Position numbers and translations under genes: made by a program | From: an uncultured Pelagibacteraceae bacterium | GTDB taxonomy: Bacteria; Pseudomonadota; Alphaproteobacteria; Pelagibacterales; Pelagibacteraceae | Assembly (NCBI GenBank): GCA_902537665.1 | Contig: CACBCE010000008.1 | Span: forward strand, 1 to 61,856 | DNA length: 61,856 nt | Direction: 5' to 3' | Notes under the pieces: model-generated | The model's database searches: none | Told to the model about the DNA's origin: nothing | What the model saw: the letters and a program-made list of their open reading frames with translations, nothing else | Part shown: positions 2,581 to 24,712 of the stretch, one piece after another | Layout of the letters: each line of letters starts with the position of its first letter | Position numbering within the stretch: the stretch's first letter is position 1

Positions 2581-3882
2581 ATGACTAAATTAACAAAAGT
2601 AATAAGTGCGCCACTTATTAGTTTAATTTTTTTATTAAACATGAGTAGTGCTGGTATGGCAGATACAACTGTTTCTGCCGAAGTAGGGTTTATATTTAAC
2701 ACCCTATTATTTTTAATTTGTGGATTCTTAGTAATGTTTATGGCTGCAGGGTTCGCAATGTTAGAATCAGGTATGGTTACATCAAAAAGTGTATCCGTAA
2801 TCTGTGCAAAAAATATAGGTTTATTTTCAATTGCAGGTATAATGTTCTGGCTTGTAGGCTATAACTTAGCTTATGGTATTGATCCAGGTGGGTACATTGG
2901 TAAATTTATTCCATGGTCAGATGGAAGTAAATTAGATACTGGCTATTCAGATGGTTCGGATTGGTATTTCCAGATGGTATTCTGTGCAACTACTGTATCA
3001 ATCGTATCAGGAACAATGGCTGAAAGAATTAAGTTATGGCCATTTTTTACATTTGCTGCAATTCTATCAGGAATCATATATCCAATCGTAATGGGTTGGC
3101 AGTGGGGTGGAGGCTGGTTAGCAGAAGCAGGTTTTTCTGATTTTGCTGGTTCGACTTTAGTACACTCAACTGGTGGTGCAGCTGCTTTAGCTGGTGCAAT
3201 GATAATTGGTCCAAGATTAGGAAGATTTACTAAATCTGGAGCTCCAGCGCCGCTAAAACCTTTTGCAGCATCATCAATACCATTAGTAACAATTGGAGTA
3301 TTTATTCTATGGCTAGGTTGGTTTGGATTTAATGGTGGTTCGCAATTAGCAATGGGAACAGCTACTGATGCAATCGCTGTATCAAGAATATTTATGAACA
3401 CATTTCTTGCAGGTGCAGGTGGTGTTATAGGTGCAGCAATTATAACAAGATTGCATTTTGGTAAAACTGACGTAGTGCAAATGTTAAATGGATGTATCGG
3501 TGGTTTGGTTGCTGTAACTGCGGAACCATTATTACCATCACCATTTGCTGCAATTTTAATTGGTGCTGTAGGTGGACTAATCGTAGTTTATGGTACTAAA
3601 CTATTATTCTCTTTGAAAATTGATGATGTAGTTGGTGCTATTCCTGCTCACTTATTTGCTGGAATTTGGGGTACATTAATTGTACCTGCAACAAACTCTG
3701 GTGCAAATTTTAGCACTCAGTTAATTGGTGTATTATCAGTAAACATATTTGTTTTTGTGGTTGCATACATTGCATTTAGCCTCATCAAAGCAACTATTGG
3801 TTTAAGATTAAGTAAAGAAGCTGAAACCAAAGGTACTGACGTAACTGAAACTGGTGTAATTGCATACGCAATTCGTGACTAG
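2581..3882 (+). CDS. amt: Ammonium transporter (Amt family)
   Basis: A 433-residue membrane channel for ammonium uptake. The N-terminus looks like a cleavable signal peptide (hydrophobic core ending SSAGMADT), as in E. coli AmtB, followed by about 11 membrane segments. The two pore histidines are visible in VHSTGG and IPAHLFAG, and the GAMxxRxKxW-like region appears as GTMAERIKLW. Length fits AmtB. A strong ribosome binding site (GGGAGG, from about 2571) precedes the ATG. No glnK/PII gene is adjacent, so post-translational control by GlnK, if present, is encoded elsewhere. The gene stands alone with a structured 3' region. Confidence 0.95.
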   Translation: MTKLTKVISAPLISLIFLLNMSSAGMADTTVSAEVGFIFNTLLFLICGFLVMFMAAGFAMLESGMVTSKSVSVICAKNIGLFSIAGIMFWLVGYNLAYGIDPGGYIGKFIPWSDGSKLDTGYSDGSDWYFQMVFCATTVSIVSGTMAERIKLWPFFTFAAILSGIIYPIVMGWQWGGGWLAEAGFSDFAGSTLVHSTGGAAALAGAMIIGPRLGRFTKSGAPAPLKPFAASSIPLVTIGVFILWLGWFGFNGGSQLAMGTATDAIAVSRIFMNTFLAGAGGVIGAAIITRLHFGKTDVVQMLNGCIGGLVAVTAEPLLPSPFAAILIGAVGGLIVVYGTKLLFSLKIDDVVGAIPAHLFAGIWGTLIVPATNSGANFSTQLIGVLSVNIFVFVVAYIAFSLIKATIGLRLSKEAETKGTDVTETGVIAYAIRD

Positions 3883-12513: not shown

Positions 12514-13665
12514 TTGAATAGAACAAATCAATTAACAAAACTACATTTATCAGGGAAACCCTATATTATTTATAAATCTCAAAACGGGTTCGATCTTTAC
12601 ACCGATTTTTCAAAAAAAATAATTTTAAACAATAAAAATATTAAAAGTTTTTTAACAAAAAAAAATAAAAAACAATCAACAAATACAGATCTTTTTATTG
12701 GTTTTTTTGGATATGAGTTATTAAATAATCTGATTGATGTAAAAGTTCCTAAACAAAAAAATTTAAACTTTCCAAAGGGTATTTTTTATAAACCAGAAAA
12801 AAAGATCAAACTCAGTAACAAGTTAAATTATGATTTAAAAAATTTTGAGTGTGAGAACTTTAAAATCAATATTAATAGAAAAAATTATACAAAAATATTC
12901 AATAAATTTAAGAAAAAGATAAAGAGTGGTGAGACATATCAAATAAAAATTTGCACTAAATATAAAACAAAGTCAAAAATCAATCCGTTAGATTTTTTTT
13001 CAAGGTTATCTGATACCAATCTAGCTCCAGAGGCTTTTATGATTAAAGATAATAATTACTCAATTATTAGCTGTTCCCCAGAAACTTTAATTATAAAAAA
13101 AGGAAACAACATATCTACAAAACCAATAGCTGGGACCGTAAAAAAAACTAAACAGTTAAATAAAATTAAAGCATTAAATTATTTTAGAAAAAATTTAAAA
13201 GAAACCAAAGAGCATAATATGATTGTTGATATGGAAAGAAATGATTTATCAAGAATTTGCAAGGTAGGTTCAGTAAAATTGTCTAAACAAAAAATCGTTG
13301 AGGAATATAAAGACCTTTTTCATTATGTTAGCTTAATTAAGGGAAAATTAAAAAAAAATACAAATAATTTTGAAATAATTAAAGCAATGATGCCAGGTGG
13401 TTCTGTTATTGGGTGTCCAAAGATAAATACGCTTAATCTTTTAAATAATCAGGAAAAAGAAAATAGAAATATTTATACAGGAAGTTTTGGTTACATAAAA
13501 TTTAATGGCGACATGAGATTTAATATAATTATAAGATCAGTTTTAAATTTTAAGAACATATCCGAAATTTCAGTTGCCTCAGGTGTCGTTGTCGATAGTA
13601 ACGCCAATCATGAGTTTAATGAGAATTTTCTTAAAGCTAAGGCGTTAATAGATTTATTCAAATGA
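12514..13665 (+). CDS. pabB: Aminodeoxychorismate synthase component I-like (PabB/TrpE family)
   Basis: A 383-residue chorismate-binding enzyme. Typical motifs are SGETYQIKIC, SCSPETLI, PIAGTVKKT, EHNMIVDMERNDLSRIC, PGGSVIGCPK and the C-terminal TGSFGYIKFNG. With the adjacent PabA-like and PabC-like genes it should form 4-amino-4-deoxychorismate for folate. Two oddities: it is short, with a reduced N-terminal domain, and the active-site loop reads PIAGT, as in anthranilate synthase, rather than the PIKGT common in PabB. The start is TTG (12514), 1 bp after the MFS stop. It overlaps pabA by 4 bp. Anthranilate synthase is the main alternative. Confidence 0.75.
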   Translation: MNRTNQLTKLHLSGKPYIIYKSQNGFDLYTDFSKKIILNNKNIKSFLTKKNKKQSTNTDLFIGFFGYELLNNLIDVKVPKQKNLNFPKGIFYKPEKKIKLSNKLNYDLKNFECENFKININRKNYTKIFNKFKKKIKSGETYQIKICTKYKTKSKINPLDFFSRLSDTNLAPEAFMIKDNNYSIISCSPETLIIKKGNNISTKPIAGTVKKTKQLNKIKALNYFRKNLKETKEHNMIVDMERNDLSRICKVGSVKLSKQKIVEEYKDLFHYVSLIKGKLKKNTNNFEIIKAMMPGGSVIGCPKINTLNLLNNQEKENRNIYTGSFGYIKFNGDMRFNIIIRSVLNFKNISEISVASGVVVDSNANHEFNENFLKAKALIDLFK

Positions 13666-14219
13666 TTTATGTAATTGACCATAACGACTCCTTTACTCAT
13701 AATGTAGTTCATCAATTTGCTATATTTGATAAAGTTGAGTGTGATAATTATGATAGAGTTAGCGAAAATAAAATTAAGCAAGCATCAACAATAATTTTTT
13801 CACCTGGACCAGGTAATCCAAAAAATTATCCAATCACTTCAAAAATTTATAAAAAATATAAAGGTAAAAAAAAAATCATAGGGATTTGTTTAGGATTTCA
13901 ACATATTTTATTTTGTGAAGGTGCAAAAATTGTTGAACAAAAAAAAATTTATCATGGTTTTCAATCAAATATAAAAGTTATTACTAATAAATCTTTATTC
14001 AAAAAAGGAAAAATATTTAAAGTTGGCAGGTATCATTCTCTAAAATTAAAAGAGCCTTTCAAATCTAATAATTTTGAGATAACTATGAGATGTTTAAATT
14101 CAAAAGTCGCGATGGCATTTGAAAATCAAAGGGAAAAAATATATGGATTTCAATTTCACCCAGAATCTTTTTTAACTATCAATGGTAACTTACTTATTAA
14201 AAAAATCTTATCAGCTTAA
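13662..14219 (+). CDS. pabA: Glutamine amidotransferase component (PabA/TrpG)
   Basis: A 185-residue class I glutaminase subunit. It opens MIYVIDHNDSFTHNVV, has the oxyanion-strand segment FSPGPGNP, the nucleophile elbow GICLGFQ and the catalytic pair in FQFHPESFLT. It would pass ammonia from glutamine to the PabB-like partner encoded directly upstream. Length is normal. The ATG overlaps the pabB stop by 4 bp (ATGA), so subunits are probably made in a fixed ratio. PabA and TrpG cannot be separated by sequence alone; in many bacteria one subunit serves both synthases. Confidence 0.85.
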   Translation: MIYVIDHNDSFTHNVVHQFAIFDKVECDNYDRVSENKIKQASTIIFSPGPGNPKNYPITSKIYKKYKGKKKIIGICLGFQHILFCEGAKIVEQKKIYHGFQSNIKVITNKSLFKKGKIFKVGRYHSLKLKEPFKSNNFEITMRCLNSKVAMAFENQREKIYGFQFHPESFLTINGNLLIKKILSA

Positions 14220-14955
14220 AGACTTAAAACAAATAGAGTTTGAAGATCTTTGGGGAGATCATGGAATTTTTACAACGATGTGGATTTTTGGCAAACCAGC
14301 AAAAATTTTATTCTTTGATAATCATTTAAAAAATTTAATTTTATCATTAAAAAAATATCAAATAAAAAAAAAATCTTTAAAGTCAGATATTTTAAAAATA
14401 ATTAATAAAAATTTATCCAAAAAGAGGAAATATAATCATCTATTGAGAATTGCCATAAATAAGAAAGTTATTTCAATATCTTTAAGAAAAAGAGTTAAAC
14501 CAAAATTAAATTTTAATTTAAGGTTAGTTAAATTAAAAAGAGAAAAACCAGAATTTAAAAATCTTAAATACAAAAAAATCTTATCTTATTTGTCTAAAAT
14601 GGATAATTCCCAATCAGATATTGCATTAGTATCCAATAAAAAATTATTAGAAACTGGAACCTCAAATTTATTATTTGTTAAAGATCAAAAATTTTTTACG
14701 CCCAAAAAGGATTATTATGAGGGAAATACTTATAAATTTTTTAAAACAAAAATAAGAAAGATAATTAAAAAAGATATTTTGGTTAAAGAAATAAAAAATT
14801 ATGATGAAATATTATTAATAGGATCTGGGAAAGGGGTTGCTTCAGTTAAAACTATAAATGATCTTAAATGGAAAAGAAAAAACCTAAAAAAATTCAAGTT
14901 TCTATCTAAACAATATGATGCTGTTATAAATAAATGTAATTCTTATAGATTTTAG
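14182..14955 (+). CDS. pabC: Aminodeoxychorismate lyase-like class IV aminotransferase
   Basis: A 257-residue fold-type IV PLP protein. GDHGIFTTMWIFGKP matches the N-terminal (G-x-G/D-x-F-T-T) element, the probable PLP lysine lies in FKNLKYKKIL, and ETGTSNLLFV matches the family's E-x-x-x-S-N-x-F phosphate-site motif. PabC splits aminodeoxychorismate into pABA and pyruvate. The ATG at 14182 overlaps pabA by 38 bp; other starts inside would cut the first strand, although a non-ATG start nearer the pabA stop is possible. The protein is very lysine-rich. Context with pabB and pabA supports the call over a branched-chain or D-amino-acid aminotransferase. Confidence 0.75.
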   Translation: MVTYLLKKSYQLKDLKQIEFEDLWGDHGIFTTMWIFGKPAKILFFDNHLKNLILSLKKYQIKKKSLKSDILKIINKNLSKKRKYNHLLRIAINKKVISISLRKRVKPKLNFNLRLVKLKREKPEFKNLKYKKILSYLSKMDNSQSDIALVSNKKLLETGTSNLLFVKDQKFFTPKKDYYEGNTYKFFKTKIRKIIKKDILVKEIKNYDEILLIGSGKGVASVKTINDLKWKRKNLKKFKFLSKQYDAVINKCNSYRF

Positions 14956-14958
14956 CAA

Positions 14959-15357
14959 ATGAAAGACCCAAACAATCCTTGTTTATTTTGTAATGTTAAA
15001 AAAAGTGGATGTGCTCATGAAAATGAATTGGCATATGCAAGTTATGACTCATATCCAGTTTCAGAACATCATTGTTTGATTATACCTAAAAGACACATAA
15101 AAGATTATTTTGATTTATCTAATAATGAATTGGTTGCCTGTAATGATCTTTTAAAAATTGTAAAAAAAGAAATAATCAATATAGATCCATTAGTTAAAGG
15201 ATTCAATTTAGGTACTAATATAGGAATTGTATCTGGTCAATCTATTTTGCATTGTCATTTTCACCTGATTCCCCGAAGAGAAGGAGATGTAGATAATCCT
15301 CAGGGTGGAGTACGATCGGTCATTCCAAACAAACAACATTATAAAAGAAATAATTAG
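14959..15357 (+). CDS. HIT family nucleotide-binding protein
   Basis: A 132-residue histidine-triad protein. The triad is in HCHFHLIPRR (H-x-H-x-H), and the N-terminal zinc-type cysteines appear in CLFCNV. These proteins hydrolyse nucleotide phosphoramidates or dinucleoside polyphosphates. The motif and the RREGDVDNPQGGVR tail resemble the bacterial HIT group annotated as diadenosine tetraphosphate hydrolases. It lies 3 bp after pabC and ends the six-gene run from metC; a functional tie with folate synthesis is not evident. Confidence 0.85.
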   Translation: MKDPNNPCLFCNVKKSGCAHENELAYASYDSYPVSEHHCLIIPKRHIKDYFDLSNNELVACNDLLKIVKKEIINIDPLVKGFNLGTNIGIVSGQSILHCHFHLIPRREGDVDNPQGGVRSVIPNKQHYKRNN

Positions 15358-15375
15358 CCTGTTATAAAAGACAAA

Positions 15376-15410
15376 TTGACCCCAGTTTGAGGTTGAACTA
15401 TAAATTCAAC
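15376..15410 (+). promoter_or_regulatory. Predicted sigma-70 promoter with overlapping dyad upstream of aprM
   Basis: TTGACC at 15376-15381 and TATAAA at 15399-15404 are 17 bp apart, close to the consensus. An inverted repeat GTTGAA (15392-15397) / TTCAAC (15405-15410) with a 7-bp spacer surrounds the -10 element, a typical place for a repressor operator. The start codon of aprM follows about 50 bp downstream, behind AAAGGCGGAA. Confidence 0.6.
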
Positions 15411-15457
15411 TATATATAAAACTTAAAAACTAATTCAAAATTTAACAAAAGGCGGAA

Positions 15458-16252
15458 ATGTTAATTAATAATCCATTTTCAATTTTATCAGAAACTATTT
15501 CACCGTTTGCAATGCAATCTTTTATTATTGCAATGGTTTTGTTGATTGCAGTTGGAACTATTATTCAAATGATACATCATAAAAATTTGACTTATTTTTT
15601 TAATAACGCAAAAAAAGCAAAACTATCAGCGACGAAAGAACTAGGTGTTGGAGAAAAAGTTTCCGTGATTGCTAAAACAACAGTCGTTGATATTGGTACT
15701 ACCTCTGAATTAGGTTTTGGTAAAAGAAGATTAGCCCATGTTCTAGGAATGTACGGAACAATTTTATTTTGGGTGTCTTCAGCTGTTTTAGTTTTTTGTT
15801 ACACAGGTGCTGATAAACCAAGTTCTCAAACTTGGTCATTAATTTGGCATGCAGGAGCAATATTAACTTGCTTGGGTGGGTATTGGTTTTGGTTTTTTTT
15901 AAGAGTTGATGTTTCAGCAGAAGCTCATCCTTGGTATAGAATCATTAAGGCTGATTTATTTGTTTTAGCTTTACTTGCATGTTCAACTTTTGGGTTAGCA
16001 TGGTCTTACACTCAATTTAACGAACAAACGGGATTATCATATTTATTTTTGACTTTATTTGTTTCATCTAATTTAATTTTATTTGGTGGTGTTTATTGGT
16101 CTAAATTTGCCCATATGTTCTACAAACCTGGAGCAGCAATACAAAAAAATCTAGCTGAAGCTGATGGTTCAAGAGACAATCTTCCCCCACCAGCAGATGC
16201 CCCTGAGCAATTTGGCTTAGGTATAAAAAGAGAAGAGCCAAAACACTATTAA
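15458..16252 (+). CDS. aprM: AprM, membrane protein associated with APS reductase
   Basis: A 264-residue membrane protein with five or so helices and several His residues inside helices (RLAHVLGMYG, LIWHAGAIL, KFAHMFY), consistent with b-type haem or quinone contact. It is encoded directly before aprB and aprA, as in SAR11 genomes where AprM was named as the probable membrane anchor and electron conduit of the dissimilatory adenylylsulfate reductase. In the oxidative direction it would move electrons from Apr to the quinone pool. No QmoABC genes are in the window, so AprM may replace that complex. The N-terminus lies in a non-cleaved hydrophobic segment. A dyad covers its predicted promoter. 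Confidence 0.8.
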   Translation: MLINNPFSILSETISPFAMQSFIIAMVLLIAVGTIIQMIHHKNLTYFFNNAKKAKLSATKELGVGEKVSVIAKTTVVDIGTTSELGFGKRRLAHVLGMYGTILFWVSSAVLVFCYTGADKPSSQTWSLIWHAGAILTCLGGYWFWFFLRVDVSAEAHPWYRIIKADLFVLALLACSTFGLAWSYTQFNEQTGLSYLFLTLFVSSNLILFGGVYWSKFAHMFYKPGAAIQKNLAEADGSRDNLPPPADAPEQFGLGIKREEPKHY

Positions 16253-16283
16253 TATGTTATTAAAAAAAGGAGAAAAATAAATT

Positions 16284-16754
16284 ATGTCAACTTTTGTATA
16301 CATGACAAGATGTGATGGTTGTGGACATTGTGTAGATATATGTCCTTCAGACATCATGCACATAGATGAAAATATTCGAAGAGCAAAAAACATTGAACCA
16401 AATTTTTGTTGGGAATGTTACTCATGCGTAAAAGCATGTCCTAATCATGCAATTGACGTAAGAGGCTATGCTGATTTTGCTCCTATGGGTCACAGTGTGA
16501 GAGTTAGAAGAGAAGAAGAAAAAGGTACTATCTCTTGGAAAATCAAATTTAGAAATGGGACAGAAAAAAATTTCGTATCCCCAATAACAACAAAACCTTG
16601 GGGTAAATTTATTCCTAAACTTGCTGAAGGTGATACTCCTAACCAAGGAGAAATTAATTCACAAAGATTATATAGTGAACCAGAGGGTTTAAATACTAAT
16701 AAAGAATTACCATCAGTTCCAAAAGAATCTTTTAAAAAAGGTGTTTATTATTAA
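16284..16754 (+). CDS. aprB: Adenylylsulfate reductase beta subunit
   Basis: A 156-residue iron-sulfur protein with two [4Fe-4S] motifs: Cys10, 13, 16 and 20 (CDGCGHCVDIC) and Cys42, 45, 48 and 52 (CWECYSCVKAC). The length, the beta-sheet middle part and the long C-terminal tail that wraps the alpha subunit are as in AprB. It passes electrons between the FAD of AprA and the membrane partner. A strong ribosome binding site (AAAGGAG) lies 13-19 bases before the ATG. Its stop overlaps the aprA start by one base (TAATG). Confidence 0.95.
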   Translation: MSTFVYMTRCDGCGHCVDICPSDIMHIDENIRRAKNIEPNFCWECYSCVKACPNHAIDVRGYADFAPMGHSVRVRREEEKGTISWKIKFRNGTEKNFVSPITTKPWGKFIPKLAEGDTPNQGEINSQRLYSEPEGLNTNKELPSVPKESFKKGVYY

Positions 16755-18613
16755 TGGCTAAGCACAAAACACATTATGAGGAATGTGATGTATTAGTTGT
16801 TGGTGGTGGAATGGCTGGCACCGGAGCAACATTCGAGGCCAGACATTGGGGAAGAGATTTAAAAATTATTTGTGTTGAAAAAGCAAATATTGATCGAAGT
16901 GGTGCAGTCGCACAAGGTTTATATGCAATCAATTGTTACATGGGTATGCAATGGGACGAAAATCAACCTGAGGACCATGTTAGATATGCCAGAAATGATC
17001 TTATGGGAATGGTTAGAGAAGATTTAGGTTATGATATGGCTCGTCATGTAGACTCAACTGTTCACATGTTTGATGAGTGGGGTCTTCCAATGATGAAAAA
17101 TGAAAAAACCGGAAGATACTTAAGGGAAGGTAAATGGCAAATCATGATACATGGTGAAAGCTATAAACCAATCGTCGCTGAGGCAGCAAAAAAATCTGCA
17201 GATAAAATTTATAATAGAATAATGGTTACTCATTTATTGATGGATGAAGCTCAAGAAAATAGAATTGGTGGAGCTGTTGGATTTAATATGAGAACAGGAG
17301 ATTTTCATGTATTTAGAGCTAAAGCAGTTATCGTTGCTGCAGGTGGTGCGTCGCATATTTTCAAACCAAGAGCGGTTGGAGAAGGTATGGGTAGAACTTG
17401 GTATGCACCATGGAGTAATGGGTCTGCATATGCACTACCTATTGCTGCAGGCGCAAAGATGACTCAAATGGAAAATAGAATTGTATTGTGTAGATTTAAA
17501 GATGGTTATGGACCTGTTGGAGCATATTTTTTACATTTAAAAACATATACACAAAATGCTAATGGCGAAAATTATGAAAAAAAATGGTATGATCAAACTA
17601 AAGAATTAGTTGGTGAATATATAGATCATCATCCAACTCCTACTTGTTTGAGAAACCACGCATTTATACAAGAAGTTGCTGCCGGTGGCGGACCGATCCA
17701 CATGGTTACTAAAGAAGCTTTTCAAGATCCACATTTAGAAACAGTTGGATGGGAAAACTTTTTAGGGATGACAGTTGGACAAGCTGTTGTTTGGGCATCA
17801 CAAAATATTGATCCAAAGTATACAAACCCTGAATTAACAACTTCTGAACCTTACGTTATGGGATCACACGCGACATGTTCAGGAGCATGGGTTAGTGGAC
17901 CTGAAGACCTGTCTCCACCAGAATACTTCTGGGGTTACAACAGAATGTTAACAATCGATGGACTTTTTGGTGCGGGAGATACAGTGGGTGGTAGTGCACA
18001 TAAATTTTCATCAGGATCTTTTACAGAGGGTAGATTAGCAGCAAAAGCAGCAGTAAAATATATTGAAGATAAAAAAGCTGAAGGAATTAATGTAACAGAT
18101 AAACAATGTGATAATTTTAAAAAAGTTGTCTACAAACCATTAGAAACCTACACAGTTGCTCAAAACGAGATAACTGGAGGAACAGTTTCACCAAGTTATA
18201 TTTCTCCAATACAAGGATTACAAAGACTTCAGAAGATTATGGATGAATACGTTGGGGGTATTACCTCAAACTATATGACCAACGGAAATTTATTAAAAAA
18301 GGCTTTAGAACTTTTAGCTTGGTTACAAGAGGATTTAGAGCACGTTGGTGCAGAAGATTATCATCAATTGATGAGGGCTTGGGAGTTGAAACATAGAGCT
18401 TTGACATCACAATGTGTGACTGAGCATACTTTGTTTAGGGAAGAAACTCGTTGGCCAGGTTATTATTATAGAGGAGATCATATGAAATTAGACGATGAAA
18501 ATTGGCATTGTCTGACAGTTTCAAGAAGAGATCCTAAAACTGGAAAATTTACTCTAGAGAAAGTTCCAGTTTATCACATTGTGGATGAAAAAGAGAAAAA
18601 GAAGGCATCATAA
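16754..18613 (+). CDS. aprA: Adenylylsulfate reductase alpha subunit
   Basis: A 619-residue flavoprotein of the fumarate-reductase-like family. FAD binding is shown by VVGGGMAGTGATFEA near the N-terminus and by DGLFGAGDTVGG late in the protein; the AprA-typical segments IHGESYKPIVAEAAK and the long C-terminal cap are present. It interconverts APS (plus electrons) with sulfite and AMP. With sulfite-forming genes close by and no sulfite reductase visible, the oxidative direction (sulfite to APS) is the likelier role here. The sulfate adenylyltransferase that would finish the path is not in the window. It overlaps aprB by one base. Confidence 0.95.
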   Translation: MAKHKTHYEECDVLVVGGGMAGTGATFEARHWGRDLKIICVEKANIDRSGAVAQGLYAINCYMGMQWDENQPEDHVRYARNDLMGMVREDLGYDMARHVDSTVHMFDEWGLPMMKNEKTGRYLREGKWQIMIHGESYKPIVAEAAKKSADKIYNRIMVTHLLMDEAQENRIGGAVGFNMRTGDFHVFRAKAVIVAAGGASHIFKPRAVGEGMGRTWYAPWSNGSAYALPIAAGAKMTQMENRIVLCRFKDGYGPVGAYFLHLKTYTQNANGENYEKKWYDQTKELVGEYIDHHPTPTCLRNHAFIQEVAAGGGPIHMVTKEAFQDPHLETVGWENFLGMTVGQAVVWASQNIDPKYTNPELTTSEPYVMGSHATCSGAWVSGPEDLSPPEYFWGYNRMLTIDGLFGAGDTVGGSAHKFSSGSFTEGRLAAKAAVKYIEDKKAEGINVTDKQCDNFKKVVYKPLETYTVAQNEITGGTVSPSYISPIQGLQRLQKIMDEYVGGITSNYMTNGNLLKKALELLAWLQEDLEHVGAEDYHQLMRAWELKHRALTSQCVTEHTLFREETRWPGYYYRGDHMKLDDENWHCLTVSRRDPKTGKFTLEKVPVYHIVDEKEKKKAS

Positions 18614-18631
18614 TTTATTTTAAGAACATTT

Positions 18632-18982
18632 ATGGATCTTTTATCAAAGTCAGATGAAGAGATTTTTAAGATCGGCAAACCTTTTTGGGAAAATTTAGTG
18701 CGAGCCTCAAATATGAAGGATTATGGAGGTTTTACTAAACATTTTTCAACACAGATGCTATTTGGAGCAAATGAAGTTGAGCTAGGTAAACAATGGGCAA
18801 ACAATAAAATTATCACGAATTTAGAGGAAACTTACAAACCCTTTGGAACTTTAAGACGTGGTGAGCACATAACAGTATTAATCAAACAGACCAACAAAGA
18901 AATACCTGGGGAGTTCCTGGGAAGATTGGTACTTGGGGTTGAGGATGACGAGATTAAAATTTTTGGAGCAACAATTTATTAA
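18632..18982 (+). CDS. Unknown 116-aa protein downstream of aprA
   Basis: A soluble 116-residue protein starting 18 bp after aprA. It has no signal peptide or membrane segment. The N-terminal half is helical (SDEEIFKIGKPFWENLVRAS) and the C-terminal half looks like beta strands (GEHITVLIKQ, FLGRLVLGVEDDEIKIFGATIY). This order and size recall small NTF2-like alpha+beta folds, but that is only a visual impression. No catalytic motif or cysteine pair is seen. Position in the apr unit suggests a role linked to sulfite oxidation. Not recognised as any named family. Confidence 0.6.
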   Translation: MDLLSKSDEEIFKIGKPFWENLVRASNMKDYGGFTKHFSTQMLFGANEVELGKQWANNKIITNLEETYKPFGTLRRGEHITVLIKQTNKEIPGEFLGRLVLGVEDDEIKIFGATIY

Positions 18983-18989
18983 TTATAGT

Positions 18990-19017
18990 TTGACAATTTT
19001 TTTGCTGGGTGTATTCA
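18990..19017 (+). promoter_or_regulatory. Predicted promoter upstream of the 44-aa ORF and tauE
   Basis: TTGACA (18990-18995, consensus) and TATTCA (19012-19017) are separated by 16 bp. The first downstream start codon (19027) lies only 9 bp after the -10, so that ORF would be nearly leaderless, or the promoter serves the TauE gene at 19184. Confidence 0.45.
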
Positions 19018-19026
19018 GAGACTTAG

Positions 19027-19161
19027 ATGCATCTTTCAAATTTAAAAATTCTAAATATCATAGCTAATAAAAAATCAACTTTTATTAAAACTGGAATTTT
19101 TTCAGCTATAGCTGCATGTTGGGGTGTTATCTTAGTTGGAACTTTTATTACTTTTAAATAA
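19027..19161 (+). CDS. 44-aa membrane peptide between apr cluster and tauE
   Basis: ATG 19027 to TAA 19159-19161 encodes 44 residues: a basic N-terminus (MHLSNLKILN then IIANKKSTFIK) and one hydrophobic segment (about residues 23-42, GIFSAIAACWGVILVGTFIT). The positive-inside rule would put the N-terminus in the cytoplasm. No family was recognised. It ends 22 bp before the TauE-type exporter gene on the same strand, so a small accessory subunit is possible, but a chance frame cannot be excluded. Confidence 0.45.
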   Translation: MHLSNLKILNIIANKKSTFIKTGIFSAIAACWGVILVGTFITFK

Positions 19162-19183
19162 GTAATATTTTAAGTTTTTATAT

Positions 19184-20281
19184 TTGATGGATGTTTTTTT
19201 ACCTATAGCCCAAGTCTTTATTAATCCAGTCGAAATACTTTTGCTAAGTGCCATTGTTGGTGTTCTTTCAGGTTTGTTTGGAGTAGGAGGTGGTTTTTTA
19301 ATGACACCTTTTTTAATCTTTATGGGTGTTCCCCCAGCTTATGCGGTAGCAAATGAGGCTAACAATATCTTAGCAACTTCAGTGTCTGGATCTACCACTC
19401 ATTGGTTAAAAAATACTTTAGATTACAAAATGGGATTAATGATCGTCATTGGTGGAACTATTGGAACTGTATTAGGTATTTTTACTTTCACTTATTTTAA
19501 AGATATTGGAAAAATAGATACAGTAATTTCTTTAGCCTATATGTACATTCTTGCAATAATTGGGACACTGATGTTGGTAGAAAGTCTGGGTGAAATTGAT
19601 AAAGCTAAAAAAAATATAGTAGAGAAGAAAAAACTACATGTCCATTATTGGATACATGGACTTCCTTTTAGAATGAGATTTCCTAAATCCAAATTATATG
19701 AAAGTATATTTACACCTATCGTAATTGGATTAATTGTTGGTTTTATTGCGGCTATCATGGGTATCGGTGGTGCATTTATTTTAGTGCCCGCAATGATTTA
19801 CATTATTAAGATGCCAACAAAATTAGTACCTGGAACTTCATTGTTTGTGACCATTTTTGTAAGTGTGATAGTTACATTTCTTCATTCAATTAATTATGGG
19901 TCAATTGATTTAATGTTAGTTTTAATGTTAGTTATAGGATCAATAGTAGGAGTTCAAGTAGGTCAGAAACTTGGAGAGCAGATTGACAGCTCTGGATTAA
20001 AAGCTTTGTTAGCAATTTTATTATTAATAGTCGGGATTGTAATAGCTTACGACACCTTTTTTGCCGAGGAGATTAAGAACGAAGTTCCATCTATAAGTTC
20101 ACCAGATTTAAATTTCTTCTCAAAGTTTATTAAGGAGTTCTCTGAGGATATGCCATTCTTCTATGGATTATTTTCAATCCTATTTGCTGTTATTTTAGGA
20201 ATAGGAGCTGCATTTATTAGAAGATCGATTTCAAAATTTAGAGAAAAATATTTTAAAAAGACAGTTAAACAATCTAAATAA
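19184..20281 (+). CDS. tauE: TauE/SafE family sulfite (anion) exporter
   Basis: A 365-residue membrane protein built of two similar halves, each beginning with a glycine-rich helix: GVLSGLFGVGGGFLMTPFLI and, later, GFIAAIMGIGGAFILVPAMI. That duplicated G-x-G-G-G-F-x-x-P pattern defines the TauE/SafE (DUF81) family. About 8-9 membrane segments and a basic cytoplasmic tail are present. Family members export sulfite or sulfoacetate, or import other anions. Lying between aprMBA and suyABZ-xsc, sulfite export is the natural guess. The last 8 bp overlap the end of the convergent suyZ-like gene. Substrate assignment is inference. Confidence 0.85.
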   Translation: MMDVFLPIAQVFINPVEILLLSAIVGVLSGLFGVGGGFLMTPFLIFMGVPPAYAVANEANNILATSVSGSTTHWLKNTLDYKMGLMIVIGGTIGTVLGIFTFTYFKDIGKIDTVISLAYMYILAIIGTLMLVESLGEIDKAKKNIVEKKKLHVHYWIHGLPFRMRFPKSKLYESIFTPIVIGLIVGFIAAIMGIGGAFILVPAMIYIIKMPTKLVPGTSLFVTIFVSVIVTFLHSINYGSIDLMLVLMLVIGSIVGVQVGQKLGEQIDSSGLKALLAILLLIVGIVIAYDTFFAEEIKNEVPSISSPDLNFFSKFIKEFSEDMPFFYGLFSILFAVILGIGAAFIRRSISKFREKYFKKTVKQSK

Positions 20282-21341
20282 AAAATTTTACATAAATCTC
20301 AATTGTTAAAATACTCACAATTCCTACAGTCAACATTGAGGTAAATCCAACTACAAAAGGTTTATAACCCATATTTCTAATATCTATTAAATTTGTAGAT
20401 AAACCTATAGCCGCCATAGCCATAGTCAAAAAAATTTTAGAAGAAGATTTAATTGAATTTATTAAATCAATCCAATTGTTATTAGTTGAAAAAACTTCAT
20501 CACCTATATTTCTTAAGATTATCATCCCAACAAAACCCAAAACAAAATATGGAAATATACTTAAAATAGAGTAACCCTTTTCTTTTGTTTGACCTCTATT
20601 ATAAAGAAAAGCGAAAAGAGGGATCATAACTATTAAAAAAGTATTTCTTATAAGCTTTGTAACAGTTGCGATATTTAATGTTTCAGGACTATTGAATTGC
20701 TGATCATATATTAATCCTGCTGCAGCTACCTGTGAGGTTTCATGTATTGCAGTACCTAAAAAAAGACCTGTAAATAATGAGTTTCCTTGAAAATAAAAAT
20801 TCGCAAAGTAAGGATATAACAACATCGATAGTATTCCGAATAAAGTAATGTTAGCAATAGCATAAGAGATTTCACTTTTGTTAGCTTTAATCACTGGTGC
20901 AGTTGCCATGATGGCTGTAGTACCACATACTGTGCTACCGATTGATATTAAATAAGCCATTCTTGTAGGTATTTGAAGTTTTTTTATAATGAGCTTTATT
21001 ACAATTAAGACGCTGACAATACAAATCAATATCAATGGAATTGCTATTTTTCCAAATTCTAAAAATTCAAAAGGTTTTAATTGTATTCCTAAACAGATAA
21101 TTCCAAGTTTTAAAATATAGTCTCTACTAAAATCTAATCCTTTTTGAAAACTTTCTCGAATTTTAAAAAAATTTCCAAAAAAAATTCCTAGTAGAATGGC
21201 TATCATTGCTGTAGAGATTGGACTTTTGCTATATCCTAAAAGTTCAATACCAATAATATTATTAAAACCTTGAGAAAGAGAATAAAGAATAAATGCAAGT
21301 ATTATACCTGGTATTAACACCAAGTAATCTTTTAAAAACAT
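20274..21341 (-). CDS. suyZ: Putative sulfate/sulfite exporter (YeiH / SuyZ family)
   Basis: A 355-residue protein with about 10 membrane helices. The family motifs are present: FFGNFF in the first half, LGIICLGIQL, GSTVCGTTAIMATAP and GTAIHETSQVAAAG. This is the UPF0324/YeiH group, also called the putative sulfate exporter family, which includes SuyZ of sulfolactate degraders. It is encoded 13 bp after suyB, so it likely removes sulfur oxyanion formed from sulfolactate. YeiH members in other bacteria have no proven substrate, so the name is from context. Confidence 0.72.
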   Translation of the reverse strand: MFLKDYLVLIPGIILAFILYSLSQGFNNIIGIELLGYSKSPISTAMIAILLGIFFGNFFKIRESFQKGLDFSRDYILKLGIICLGIQLKPFEFLEFGKIAIPLILICIVSVLIVIKLIIKKLQIPTRMAYLISIGSTVCGTTAIMATAPVIKANKSEISYAIANITLFGILSMLLYPYFANFYFQGNSLFTGLFLGTAIHETSQVAAAGLIYDQQFNSPETLNIATVTKLIRNTFLIVMIPLFAFLYNRGQTKEKGYSILSIFPYFVLGFVGMIILRNIGDEVFSTNNNWIDLINSIKSSSKIFLTMAMAAIGLSTNLIDIRNMGYKPFVVGFTSMLTVGIVSILTIEIYVKFFI

Positions 21342-21354
21342 TCTTATAAAATGA

Positions 21355-22524
21355 TTATGCGCTTCTATAAAGTTTAGTCATAACAAATTCCTTATGACCC
21401 AAAGCTTCTGCACAAGTTAATCTTCCATTAGCAACTCGAAGAGTTGTCTCAATAAGTTTATCTCCCGCCTCTGATAAATTCATTTCTCTTGAAAGAATTT
21501 TTGATACATCGCAATCAATGTGTTCACCCATACTTTTAACAGTCAATGGATTAGCAGTTAATTTAACGACTGGCTCAATTGGATTTCCAACAATGTTACC
21601 TTGCCCAGTTGGAAACAAATGGATATTAAATCCTGCTGCTGCTTGTAGTGTTACACACTCTGCTGCAGCTGAAGAAGTATCCATAAAGTATAATCCTTTA
21701 CCTTTCTTTGGTTCTTCCGCTGGCTCTAAAACATCTATAAATTTACAATCACCAATTTTTTGAAAATTTCCAAATGCTTTTTCTTCAATAGTTGTCAAGC
21801 CTCCAGCAATGTTTCCAGCAGTTGGTTGACTCTCTGAAAGATCATCAGTTGCTTCTTTTAGAATAAAATCATTATATGCGCTCCAAGTTTTCATAAATTT
21901 ATCTGAAGCTTCTTTTGTAGCACCTCTCGTTGCACAAACTTTTTCAGCTCCAGTTAACTCTGAAGTTTCACCAAAACATAAATGAACACCAAGTGGCTCA
22001 AGTTTATCCATTAAGTTTCCAACTGTAGGATTTGATGCAAGACCTGATGTGGTATCTGATTCTCCACATTTTACTGAAATCCACAAATCACTTATTGGAC
22101 ATTCCTCTCTTTGTTTTTCAGAAGCCCACATAACAAACTCTTGTGCTTTTTTGGATGCTTTCATAACAGTTCCAATATCACCCGTTCGTTCAATGTGAAA
22201 ACCTTCTACAGGCTTTCCAGTCTTTGCTATTCCATCTACAATTCTTTTAGTCCACTTTGGCTCAATACCGATTACAATCACAGCAGCAACATTTGGATTA
22301 CTTCCAGTTCCAATCATTGTTCTAAAATGTAGTTCTAAATCTGCTCCAAACTGCAATCGTCCATATGAATGTGGTAATGCGATAGTTCCTTTTATATTGT
22401 TTGCAACTGCCTCTGCGCAAGCATTTGAAATATCATCTACTGGTAAAATAATTACGTGATTTCTAGTTCCCGCTCTTCCATTTTCTCTTTTGTAACCTAA
22501 AAAACTTTTTGGAATTTCCATCAA
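21355..22524 (-). CDS. suyB: (2R)-Sulfolactate sulfo-lyase beta subunit (UxaA family)
   Basis: A 389-residue protein of the altronate-dehydratase UxaA C-terminal family. It opens [17 protein letters not shown], a hallmark of the family, and has [15 protein letters not shown] and [15 protein letters not shown]. In altronate dehydratase the SAF domain and this part are fused (about 495 residues); here they are two genes, as in SuyAB. The length equals that reported for SuyB-type proteins. SuyAB splits 3-sulfolactate into pyruvate and sulfite, and the next genes (suyZ, xsc, tauE, apr) all concern sulfonate or sulfite. A sugar-acid dehydratase is the main alternative. It starts 1 bp after suyA ends. 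Confidence 0.72.
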
Positions 22525-22525
22525 T

Positions 22526-22810
22526 TTACCACTTTTTTGTTTTTACGTTATGAACATGTACATGTTCACCTTTTTTTATTGATTTAACTACTTTTCCTAT
22601 GTCGTGACCATATTTTAAAATTGTGTCTCCTTCTTTTAAGTCCGTCATAGCAATTTTATGACCCAATGGTATTTCATCCATTGATTGAATATCTGTTGAG
22701 CTATCATCTTCCATAATCCAGCATTTACAGTCTTGTTTTGGTGTTATTTTTTCGATTACTACAACCCCTACATTATCCTTTTTATCGTGAATTATGATGT
22801 CAGTAGCCAT
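22526..22810 (-). CDS. suyA: (2R)-Sulfolactate sulfo-lyase alpha subunit (SAF domain)
   Basis: A 94-residue SAF-domain protein: the ends [15 protein letters not shown] and [42 protein letters not shown]. Split SAF subunits of this size pair with UxaA-type large subunits in SuyAB and in a few other two-part hydro-lyases. It is the first gene of the - strand suyABZ unit and is divergent from xsc across 117 bp. A small two-cysteine insert (CKCWIMEDD) between strands is unusual for the fused UxaA proteins. Confidence 0.72.
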
Positions 22811-22927
22811 TATATCGTGTCGATTTGTTTGTTTGAATTTTCAAAAATCTTATATATTAATCGCGACAATTAAGAAATAGTTTTGTAAAAAAATTATTAT
22901 TTTTGCTAGATTAGAAAGGTTCTATTA
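22811..22927. promoter_or_regulatory. Divergent regulatory region between suyA and xsc
   Basis: This 117-bp gap must hold promoters for both directions. A TAGATT -10-like element lies in GCTAGATTAG (about 22908-22917) before xsc, and an AT-rich TATATAAG lies on the opposite strand. Around 22858-22874 the sequence TTAATCGCGACAATTAA has TTAAT/ATTAA arms around a CG-rich core, a possible operator between the two genes. No single strong promoter can be fixed by eye. Confidence 0.4.
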
Positions 22928-24712
22928 ATGACTAAAATGACAACAGAAGAAGCTTTTGTAAAAGTTTTACAAATGCACGGCATCGAACATGCTTTTGGAA
23001 TAATAGGTTCAGCATTCATGCCTATCTCTGATATTTTTCCTGATGCAGGTATTACTTTTTGGGACGTAGCTCATGAAACAAATGGTGGACTAATCGCTGA
23101 TGGTTATACAAGATCTACGGGTAAAATGTCTATGGTCATTGCACAAAACGGGCCAGGCATCACTGGATTAGTAACCCCGATTAAAACTGCTTACTGGAAC
23201 CATACACCATTATTATTAGTAACACCTCAGGCAGCAAACAAGACTATGGGTCAAGGAGGTTTTCAAGAAGTAGAGCAAATGAATTTATTTAAAGATATGG
23301 TTTGTTACCAAGAAGAGGTTAGAGACCCATCAAGAATGGCTGAAGTTTTAAATAGAGTAATTGAAAAAGCAATAAGAGGCTCAGCGCCAGCGCAAATTAA
23401 TGTTCCAAGAGATTATTGGACTCAGGTTATCGATATTGAATTACCACCAATAGTAAGACTAGAAAGACAAGGTGGAGGAGCAGAGGCTATAGATAAAGCT
23501 GCAAAACTTTTATCAAATGCAAAGTTTCCAGTTATTTTATCTGGTGCAGGAGTTGTAATCGGTGGTGCAATTGAAGAAACAAAAAAACTTGCAGAAAAAT
23601 TAGACTCTCCAGTTTGTTCTGGTTATCAACACAATGATAGTTTTCCAGGAAGCCATCCATTAGCTGTAGGACCTTTAGGATATAATGGGTCAAAAGCTGC
23701 AATGGAATTAATTTCAAAAGCAGATGTTGTTTTAGCTTTAGGAACAAGACTAAATCCATTTTCAACACTTCCAGGGTATGGCATAGATTATTGGCCCAAA
23801 AAAGCAAGCATCATTCAAGTTGATATCAACCCTGATAGAATTGGTTTAACTAAAAAAGTAACTGTTGGAATAAGCGGAGATGCAAAATTAGTTGCACAAC
23901 AAATATTTGATAGATTATCATCTAATGCAGGTGATACGGATAGACAAAAAAGAAAAGACTTAATTCATCAAACAAAATCTGCTTGGTTACAAAAATTATC
24001 TAGTCTGGATCATGAAGATGATGATGAAGGAACAGTCTGGAACAAAGAAGCAAGAGAGAGAGATAAAGATAGAATGTCACCAAGACAAGCTTGGAGAGCA
24101 ATACAAGCAGGAATGCCAGAAGATGTAATCATTTCGAGTGATATTGGTAACAATTGTGCAATTGGAAATGCTTACCCAACTTTTGAAAAACCGAGAAAAT
24201 ATTTGGCACCAGGTTTGTTTGGTCCTTGTGGTTATGGTTTTCCATCAATACTTGGAGCAAAGATTGGATGTCCAGATACACCTGTAATTGGTTTTGCAGG
24301 AGACGGGGCGTTTGGAATTAGTATGAATGAGATGAGTTCTTGTGCTCGTGAAGAGTGGCCAGCAATTACAATGGTTATTTTTAGAAATTATCAATGGGGT
24401 GCAGAAAAAAGAAATACTACTCTTTGGTTTGATAATAATTTCGTCGGAACTGAGTTAGATCCCGAGTTAAGTTATGCGAAGGTAGCTGAAGCTTGTGGTT
24501 TAAAAGGAGTAACAGTTAAATCAATGGAGGAAACAACTGCTGCAATCAAGCAATCTTGTGAGGATCAAAAAAAAGGTATCACTACATTTATAGAAGTAAT
24601 TTTAAACCAAGAACTCGGTGAACCATTTAGAAGAGATGCAATGAAAAAGCCTGTAAGGGTGGCTGGTATAAAAAAAGAGGATATGAAAAAGCAGCCTACT
24701 TTAAATTCTTAA
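22928..24712 (+). CDS. xsc: Sulfoacetaldehyde acetyltransferase
   Basis: A 594-residue thiamine-diphosphate enzyme. The ThDP glutamate is in VAHETNGGLIADGY and the Mg/ThDP motif runs from GDGAFGISMNEM to NYQWG. The N-terminal HGIEHAFGIIGSAFMPISD and the segment ending TLWFDNNFVGTEL are typical of Xsc rather than acetolactate synthase or oxalyl-CoA decarboxylase, and the length fits (about 590). Xsc turns sulfoacetaldehyde and phosphate into acetyl phosphate and sulfite, a common step in taurine, isethionate and sulfoacetate breakdown. No pta gene, which often follows xsc, is present. Divergence from suyA suggests shared control. Confidence 0.9.
   Translation: MTKMTTEEAFVKVLQMHGIEHAFGIIGSAFMPISDIFPDAGITFWDVAHETNGGLIADGYTRSTGKMSMVIAQNGPGITGLVTPIKTAYWNHTPLLLVTPQAANKTMGQGGFQEVEQMNLFKDMVCYQEEVRDPSRMAEVLNRVIEKAIRGSAPAQINVPRDYWTQVIDIELPPIVRLERQGGGAEAIDKAAKLLSNAKFPVILSGAGVVIGGAIEETKKLAEKLDSPVCSGYQHNDSFPGSHPLAVGPLGYNGSKAAMELISKADVVLALGTRLNPFSTLPGYGIDYWPKKASIIQVDINPDRIGLTKKVTVGISGDAKLVAQQIFDRLSSNAGDTDRQKRKDLIHQTKSAWLQKLSSLDHEDDDEGTVWNKEARERDKDRMSPRQAWRAIQAGMPEDVIISSDIGNNCAIGNAYPTFEKPRKYLAPGLFGPCGYGFPSILGAKIGCPDTPVIGFAGDGAFGISMNEMSSCAREEWPAITMVIFRNYQWGAEKRNTTLWFDNNFVGTELDPELSYAKVAEACGLKGVTVKSMEETTAAIKQSCEDQKKGITTFIEVILNQELGEPFRRDAMKKPVRVAGIKKEDMKKQPTLNS

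Follow-up and report, generated by a model that had tools for sequence, protein, structure and literature searches.

Few groups of cells in the ocean are as abundant as the SAR11 bacteria, and there is a large flux of sulfonates, including taurine and 2,3-dihydroxypropane-1-sulfonate (DHPS), between algae and bacteria. The stretch of DNA considered here (61,856 nucleotides of contig CACBCE010000008.1 from an uncultured Pelagibacteraceae bacterium, referred to below as the window) carries a compact block of genes that would release sulfite from sulfonates and oxidise it, through the reductase AprBA, to adenosine 5'-phosphosulfate (APS), and the question this block leaves is how a SAR11 cell disposes of APS without the ATP sulfurylase Sat, and whether the route then gives sulfate and usable energy. 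The reading that we consider quite probable as a whole is that the block is a SAR11 module for desulfonation and sulfite disposal, fed from a second locus, in which APS is discharged without Sat. An earlier note on this DNA had already proposed that the block degrades sulfonates and then oxidises or exports the sulfite, and protein families, a tree of SuyB and synteny all argue for this, as far as sequence can.

On the plus strand, from 14959 to 24712, lie in turn a HIT-domain gene, aprM, aprB, aprA, a small open reading frame called orf116 here, tauE and then xsc, with a yeiH-like gene, suyB and suyA on the minus strand between tauE and xsc. In the scheme proposed, SuyAB would convert (R)-sulfolactate to pyruvate and sulfite, and Xsc would form acetyl phosphate and sulfite from sulfoacetaldehyde; AprBA, joined to the membrane through AprM, would then combine sulfite with adenosine monophosphate (AMP) to give APS, passing electrons to the respiratory chain, while TauE, together with the YeiH-type carrier in part of SAR11, would export sulfite or sulfate. 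Feeding from the second locus would involve an importer, an aminotransferase with alanine dehydrogenase, and sulfolactate-dehydrogenase-like, Pta-family and HpsN-like proteins. Our first guess for the removal of APS, in those SAR11 that have the HIT gene, is that its product works as an APS hydrolase or phosphorylase; orf116 may be an accessory protein for this kind of Apr. That SAR11 closes the Apr route in just this way, with the HIT protein cleaving or phosphorolysing APS to sulfate and AMP or adenosine diphosphate (ADP), and with orf116 supporting the reaction or doing part of it, is a tentative proposal that we would ourselves call rather improbable; the merit of these two small proteins is that they make the APS question directly testable.

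The first matter to settle is whether the block is anything more than a chance neighbourhood. Among 147 genomes sampled from the family, 68 are AprA-positive (taken as an AprA match above 300 bits, which leaves out 14 further genomes with weak flavoprotein matches) and 69 have SuyB matches, two genomes (G065 and G143) having been dropped as holding only a 30-32% identical paralogue. AprA and SuyB lie no more than 10 kb apart in 59 of the 64 genomes with both; in 3 others the distance is 13-25 kb, and in the remaining 2 the genes are on separate contigs. Gene order and strands recur across SAR11, so that the block is conserved in relatives and is more than a product of chance, and the refuting outcome named in the earlier note, a chance neighbourhood, did not materialise. 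In 20 neighbourhoods of 15-19 kb, picked across genera with suyB as bait, suyA is present in all 20, xsc in 19, aprM, aprB, aprA and orf116 in 17 each, tauE in 16, the HIT gene in 12 and yeiH in 10, these being counts in which a "missing" gene may sit outside the stretch or past a contig end (in L036 and L050, for instance, apr lies 13-20 kb from suyB). More generally, some of the assemblies are incomplete, which makes absence weak evidence, and Fisher values for co-occurrence within this one family are uncorrected for shared descent and overstate significance.

The second matter is Sat itself. The assembly that carries the window as its contig C8 amounts to 1.04 Mb in 26 contigs, and a search of this genome (81% complete) for a sat match found none. 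The same search in 60 of the 68 AprA-positive SAR11 genomes (the 8 left out being 56-64% complete) gave no match in 57 and divergent matches under the cut-off in the other 3; these last are ATP-sulfurylase-like, at 136-150 bits far below the cut-off (G002:C1:311356, G010:C11:2442 and G074:C1:192305). Of 20 other AprA-bearing alphaproteobacteria, 19 have a match (18 of them over the cut-off; there is none in G463), and in 15 of the 20 cases sat is found inside the AprA window. Most SAR11 are described as being without ATP sulfurylase in PMC10356861 also. With no ATP sulfurylase found, APS would therefore have to be discharged in some other way, if Apr runs oxidatively.

A possible substitute for Sat, a small nucleotidyltransferase of about 126 residues (PF01467, with a weak match to PF01747) encoded upstream of aprM in other genera, was considered and rejected: it is not specific to the block, since 81 of the 147 family genomes have a match, whether or not they carry AprA. 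Sequence comparison with solved structures gave a small number of weak relatives, including several nicotinamide mononucleotide adenylyltransferases. Copies lie at 2620-3000 in neighbourhood L044, at 2971-3747 in L048 and, in the genome of the window, on another contig (G000:C6:27148-27525). The L048 protein appears by eye to be fused to a P-loop kinase-like domain, and the fused protein has homologues at 40-44% in five phage records.

The gene most closely tied to this kind of Apr is orf116 (18632-18982, plus strand), which begins 18 nucleotides behind aprA and for which no family was found in Pfam or NCBIfam at an E-value of 0.001. An AlphaFold2 model based on 20 orthologues (pLDDT 90.1, pTM 0.83) gave, in the first 20 rows from VIA-align 2, Z values of 8.9-10.1 over 96-110 of the 116 residues, with root-mean-square deviations of 2.4-3.8, while matches from Foldseek were mostly NTF2-like (TM-scores 0.39-0.62, one match having E below 0.001); an NTF2-like fold is accordingly what the model predicts. 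The gene occurs in 66 of the 68 AprA-positive SAR11 genomes and in none of the other 79. Both AprA-positive genomes that are free of it, G042 and G121, have an in-frame stop in their AprA match, although G110 keeps orf116 even with an in-frame stop in one AprA piece. The distance to aprA is 36 nucleotides or less in all 17 neighbourhoods that hold both genes, and the ratio of non-synonymous to synonymous substitution rates (dN/dS) is 0.033 in the comparison with L031, saturation having affected the other two pairs. The best 80 of 457 relatives of orf116 all come from contigs titled Pelagibacteraceae or Pelagibacterales, which bears out the SAR11 kinship of the window and is uninformative on distant hosts.

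Outside SAR11, orf116 was found in just one of 20 AprA windows (G431, locus L212; 44% identity), and the AprA of G431, on a long branch, and one AprA of G147 are together sister to SAR11 AprA (100/100). Since G431 carries a sat match as well as orf116, the idea that orf116 replaces Sat is weakened; for the same reason orf116 seems to go with a lineage of AprA and not with missing Sat. We consider an accessory role more probable. What that role might be is another matter. NTF2 folds often belong to small-molecule enzymes or binders, and around the G147 member of the sister pair (L214) orf116 is missing from the AprA window; both points tell against orf116 being a factor for the assembly, stability or docking of this AprBA subclade with no part in APS discharge. 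Even so, we judge the chances to be slightly in favour of such a factor, in view of the close spacing behind aprA in those 17 neighbourhoods, the presence of sat in the only non-SAR11 genome with an orf116 window, and the sister position of the G431 and G147 AprA proteins.

The HIT-domain protein (14959-15357, plus strand; 132 residues; PF01230, 57 bits) is a candidate APS-handling enzyme. Arabidopsis Hint4 and Caenorhabditis elegans DcpS are HIT proteins that reportedly act on APS. A further precedent is APAT of Thiobacillus denitrificans, which is described as giving ADP and sulfate from APS without Sat (PMC8551704). The histidine triad is intact in all 8 aligned rows (HCHxH(L/V)IPRR), and orthologues above 100 bits are present in 40 of the 68 AprA-positive SAR11 genomes and in none of the other 79; among the matches listed, the weaker ones are 26-40% identical. 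A stronger point than these co-occurrence statistics is that the gene has two different positions within the block: 24 of the 42 copies are no more than 1.7 kb from aprA, another 15 are no more than 100 nucleotides from suyB, and 3 are elsewhere. In the neighbourhoods, 11 copies lie 97-120 nucleotides before aprM, while that of L044 is 2 nucleotides from suyB.

It is, all the same, an even chance in our estimation that position alone connects the HIT gene with the block, for example as part of a pab operon, and that the gene has no sulfur role. In the window it starts 3 nucleotides behind a pabC-like gene and 100 nucleotides before aprM, and two sets of facts weigh against the APS-handling role: the gene is absent from 28 of the 68 AprA-positive genomes, and of the relatives looked at outside SAR11 three are associated with HNH nucleases, L289 and L290 by fusion and L294 by adjacency to an HNH gene. 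Relatives at an E-value of 1e-20 or better occur in 13 of 385 alphaproteobacterial genomes, 3 of the 13 being SAR11, and the notion that a HIT gene beside xsc is a general rule had to be rejected, as a survey of 27 non-SAR11 xsc loci, taken with flanks of about 1.5 kb, found this arrangement once, a result that also favours a purely positional link. Such a link fits poorly with the 15 copies close to suyB, with the L044 neighbourhood, which has a HIT gene and no pab match, with the lack of any orthologue above 100 bits in the 79 AprA-negative genomes, and with G382, where aprA and xsc flank the HIT gene and sat is part of the same locus. The HNH-HIT fusions themselves are at 6920-7909 in L289 and 3098-4096 in L290, and their HIT parts are 51-53% identical to the HIT protein of the window.

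The genes in front of the HIT gene also vary. Three pabB-pabA-pabC-like genes, named by eye, occupy 12514-14955 of the window, upstream of apr, and in five neighbourhoods from other genera the same position is taken by a TENA/PqqC-fold protein (L044 1925-2596, whose product matches PF03070 and PF14518; L045 3395-4060; L046 1466-2137; L047 789-1472; L048 3801-4526), which may have a CADD-type role. The pattern suggests that one route to p-aminobenzoate has been exchanged for another.

As to the Apr genes, aprB (16284-16754; TIGR02060 at 188 bits against a cut-off of 136, and PF12139) and aprA (16754-18613; TIGR02061 at 988 bits against 642) encode the beta and alpha subunits of APS reductase, and the intergenic spacings from aprM through aprB and aprA to orf116 are 31, -1 and 18 nucleotides. 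The membrane protein encoded at 15458-16252, directly before aprBA, is without a Pfam match and has a weak QmoC match of 19 bits, so that its naming as putative AprM rests on its position and on PMC2211403, which links aprM to aprBA and places Pelagibacter AprBA in Apr lineage I. An aprM homologue is present in 16 of the 20 non-SAR11 AprA windows, and the AprA tree splits 24 rows with aprM from 4 rows without it (100/100). A small cytochrome-c-like protein (CxxCH, by eye) is encoded near apr in three genomes of other genera (L046 6974-7279, L047 6319-6624 and L048 4564-4950), and is possibly an electron acceptor for sulfite oxidation there.

Two exporters had been proposed in the earlier note. 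The TauE/SafE-type exporter (19184-20281, plus strand) matches PF01925 at 2.9e-46 and 158.5 bits (cut-off 32.6), and the YeiH-family carrier (20274-21341, minus strand), SuyZ-like by position, matches PF03601 over its cut-off at 229 bits, falls below the cut-off of NCBIfam TIGR00698 (154 bits against 232.6), and is 28% identical to the carrier behind Paracoccus suyAB. The claim holds for 10 of the 20 SAR11 neighbourhoods and fails for the other 10, from which the YeiH carrier is missing; this carrier is the least constant exporter, and two exporters are a feature of some lineages only.

One might take from this that export is the main fate of sulfite, that Apr plays a minor part or serves under stress, and that APS is too scarce to need a dedicated enzyme. 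The frequency of exporter genes in the neighbourhoods (TauE in 16, YeiH in 10) and the missing Sat match in 57 of 60 genomes would fit this, as would the statement in PMC10356861 that sulfate excretion from taurine by cultured SAR11 is not yet demonstrated, which equally weighs against our overall reading. We nevertheless think it doubtful that export dominates: dN/dS for AprA and AprB is among the lowest in the block (0.000-0.023), L048 keeps aprMBA-orf116 although its neighbourhood is without tauE and yeiH, and PMC12636525 finds Pelagibacteraceae aprAB under very strong purifying selection, among the core genes where such selection is highest.

The sulfite-releasing end of the block is better defined. 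The xsc gene (22928-24712, plus strand) matches sulfoacetaldehyde acetyltransferase models TIGR03457 (968 bits, cut-off 676) and NF005713 (1038 bits). The two separate adjacent genes suyB (21355-22524) and suyA (22526-22810), 1 nucleotide apart on the minus strand, correspond to the C-terminal and N-terminal parts of UxaA and would encode the large and small subunits of (R)-sulfolactate sulfo-lyase. SuyB matches PF20629 and PF04295; for SuyA the family evidence is a sub-cut-off SAF match and a 40-bit match to the N-terminal end of TIGR03248, and it can be aligned with small subunits from the Paracoccus, Cupriavidus and Methylobacterium loci. In a tree of 20 rows, drawn from relatives of characterised systems and not from the strains used to characterise SuyAB, the SuyB of the window joins the Paracoccus, Cupriavidus, Methylobacterium and Rhodococcus rows (100/100, branch 1.07). 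Outside this clade, among rows with long branches, fall UxaA of E. coli K-12, two GarD, one altronate-family protein and four other split pairs (from Variovorax, Selenomonas, Haladaptatus and Escherichia albertii); in this preset check SuyB thus groups apart from E. coli UxaA and GarD, as the assignment in the earlier note required. A tblastn search of plasmids with SuyB returned 13 records at 59-70% identity, after which the next falls to 39%; behind the Paracoccus suyAB pair lies a putative sulfate exporter family gene, and upstream of the Cupriavidus pair lie hpsN and hpsO. By these sequence relationships the split UxaA pair is SuyAB, and it is very unlikely to act instead on a sugar acid or some other 3-substituted hydroxy acid, for although the matching family models are named galactarate or altronate dehydratase and the tree contained orthologues of the biochemically characterised proteins in place of those proteins themselves, the SuyB branch is long and well supported and the pair is linked to xsc, apr and an exporter.

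Where the substrates come from is a question that leads away from the window. The earlier note had placed the further steps elsewhere, and this proved right for an importer and for Pta-family and HpsN-like proteins, which are found at a second locus, and wrong as regards sat, which has no match in the genome itself or in 57 of the 60 SAR11 genomes. In genome G003 this second locus (L306, 3453-13136) encodes an SsuA/TauA-like binding protein with TauB-like and TauC-like subunits, a Pta-family protein, an HpsN-like protein and a sulfolactate-dehydrogenase-like Ldh_2 protein (235 bits, cut-off 500), with an omega-aminotransferase and an alanine dehydrogenase divergently placed. In the genome of the window, the HpsN-like and Pta-family genes are on contig C19 and those for the aminotransferase and the binding protein on C4 (loci L310 and L309). 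HpsN-like proteins, 56-63% identical to Cupriavidus HpsN, were found in all 14 SAR11 genomes searched, that of the window included, and the same genomes hold a separate homologue of HpsN at 28-32%, taken to be HisD. According to PMC6647121, taurine is taken up by SAR11 cells, and PMC11131964 lists SAR11 among carriers of the DHPS pathway and describes assays on DHPS of the HpsO, HpsP and HpsN homologues from SAR11.

The substrates of the second locus nevertheless remain a matter of inference, and a number of observations weigh against the proposed feeding steps. The taurine binding-protein model matches in 13 of the 14 genomes, in none of them over the cut-off; the aminotransferase best fits the omega-aminotransferase AptA; and in only 4 of 14 genomes do the HpsN-like gene and aprA lie some 35 kb or less apart. 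Feeding by DHPS in particular is uncertain, because the HpsN-like protein scores above the cut-off of the hisD model and because the apparent SAR11 HpsN of PMC11131964, which could be either of the two homologues, had a DHPS-to-histidinol efficiency ratio of 0.04.

With regard to the window itself, the positions and families of the genes listed in the earlier note (aprMBA, TauE, the YeiH-type carrier, the split UxaA pair and xsc) were all confirmed. That list began at 15376, 82 bases before the aprM start codon, and to it must be added orf116, between aprA and tauE, and the HIT gene directly upstream. No Rfam match at the gathering threshold was found between 10000 and 30000 of the window, and a scan for promoters and terminators gave sites no more numerous than in shuffled sequence.

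How much of this is new? The reading of the block in terms of sulfonates and sulfite appears sound, and is mostly in print already in PMC12636525, PMC5069961 and PMC10356861. PMC5069961 describes AprBA in Ca. P. ubique, with sat lacking, and gives it a detoxifying role, and in PMC12636525 suyAB and xsc are core or near-core in Pelagibacteraceae and Apr is a remover of sulfite; the genes concerned are the same as here, as is the passage from organosulfur compounds to sulfite and its removal by Apr. The difference is that the passages of PMC12636525 consulted mention neither the physical arrangement of the block nor orf116, the HIT gene or a means of discharging APS. In the open-licence PMC papers searched, no account came to light of orf116, or of a HIT gene with apr, though one may exist.

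Several better-known systems can be set beside the block. Paracoccus versutus (L082) has a similar suyA-suyB pair with a putative sulfate exporter family carrier behind it, and the hps-suyAB locus of Cupriavidus pinatubonensis (L081) likewise has the pair, with an hpsN-like gene of the kind that exists in SAR11; both differ in having no apr among the annotated features of these stretches. The sulfur oxidisers of Apr lineage I (PMC2211403) share the order aprM-aprB-aprA and differ in sat, with a match in 19 of 20 other alphaproteobacteria as against none in 57 of 60 SAR11, and in orf116, which lies behind aprA in 1 of 20 non-SAR11 windows. Another comparison is with 'Ca. Taurinisymbion ianthellae' (PMC10356861), which has tauABC, tpa, xsc and AprAB-based sulfite oxidation, and which unlike SAR11 uses Qmo and has sat. 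Hint4, DcpS and APAT, finally, are likened to the SAR11 HIT protein by description as distinct from sequence, and what they contribute is that HIT-type chemistry on APS is a known possibility.

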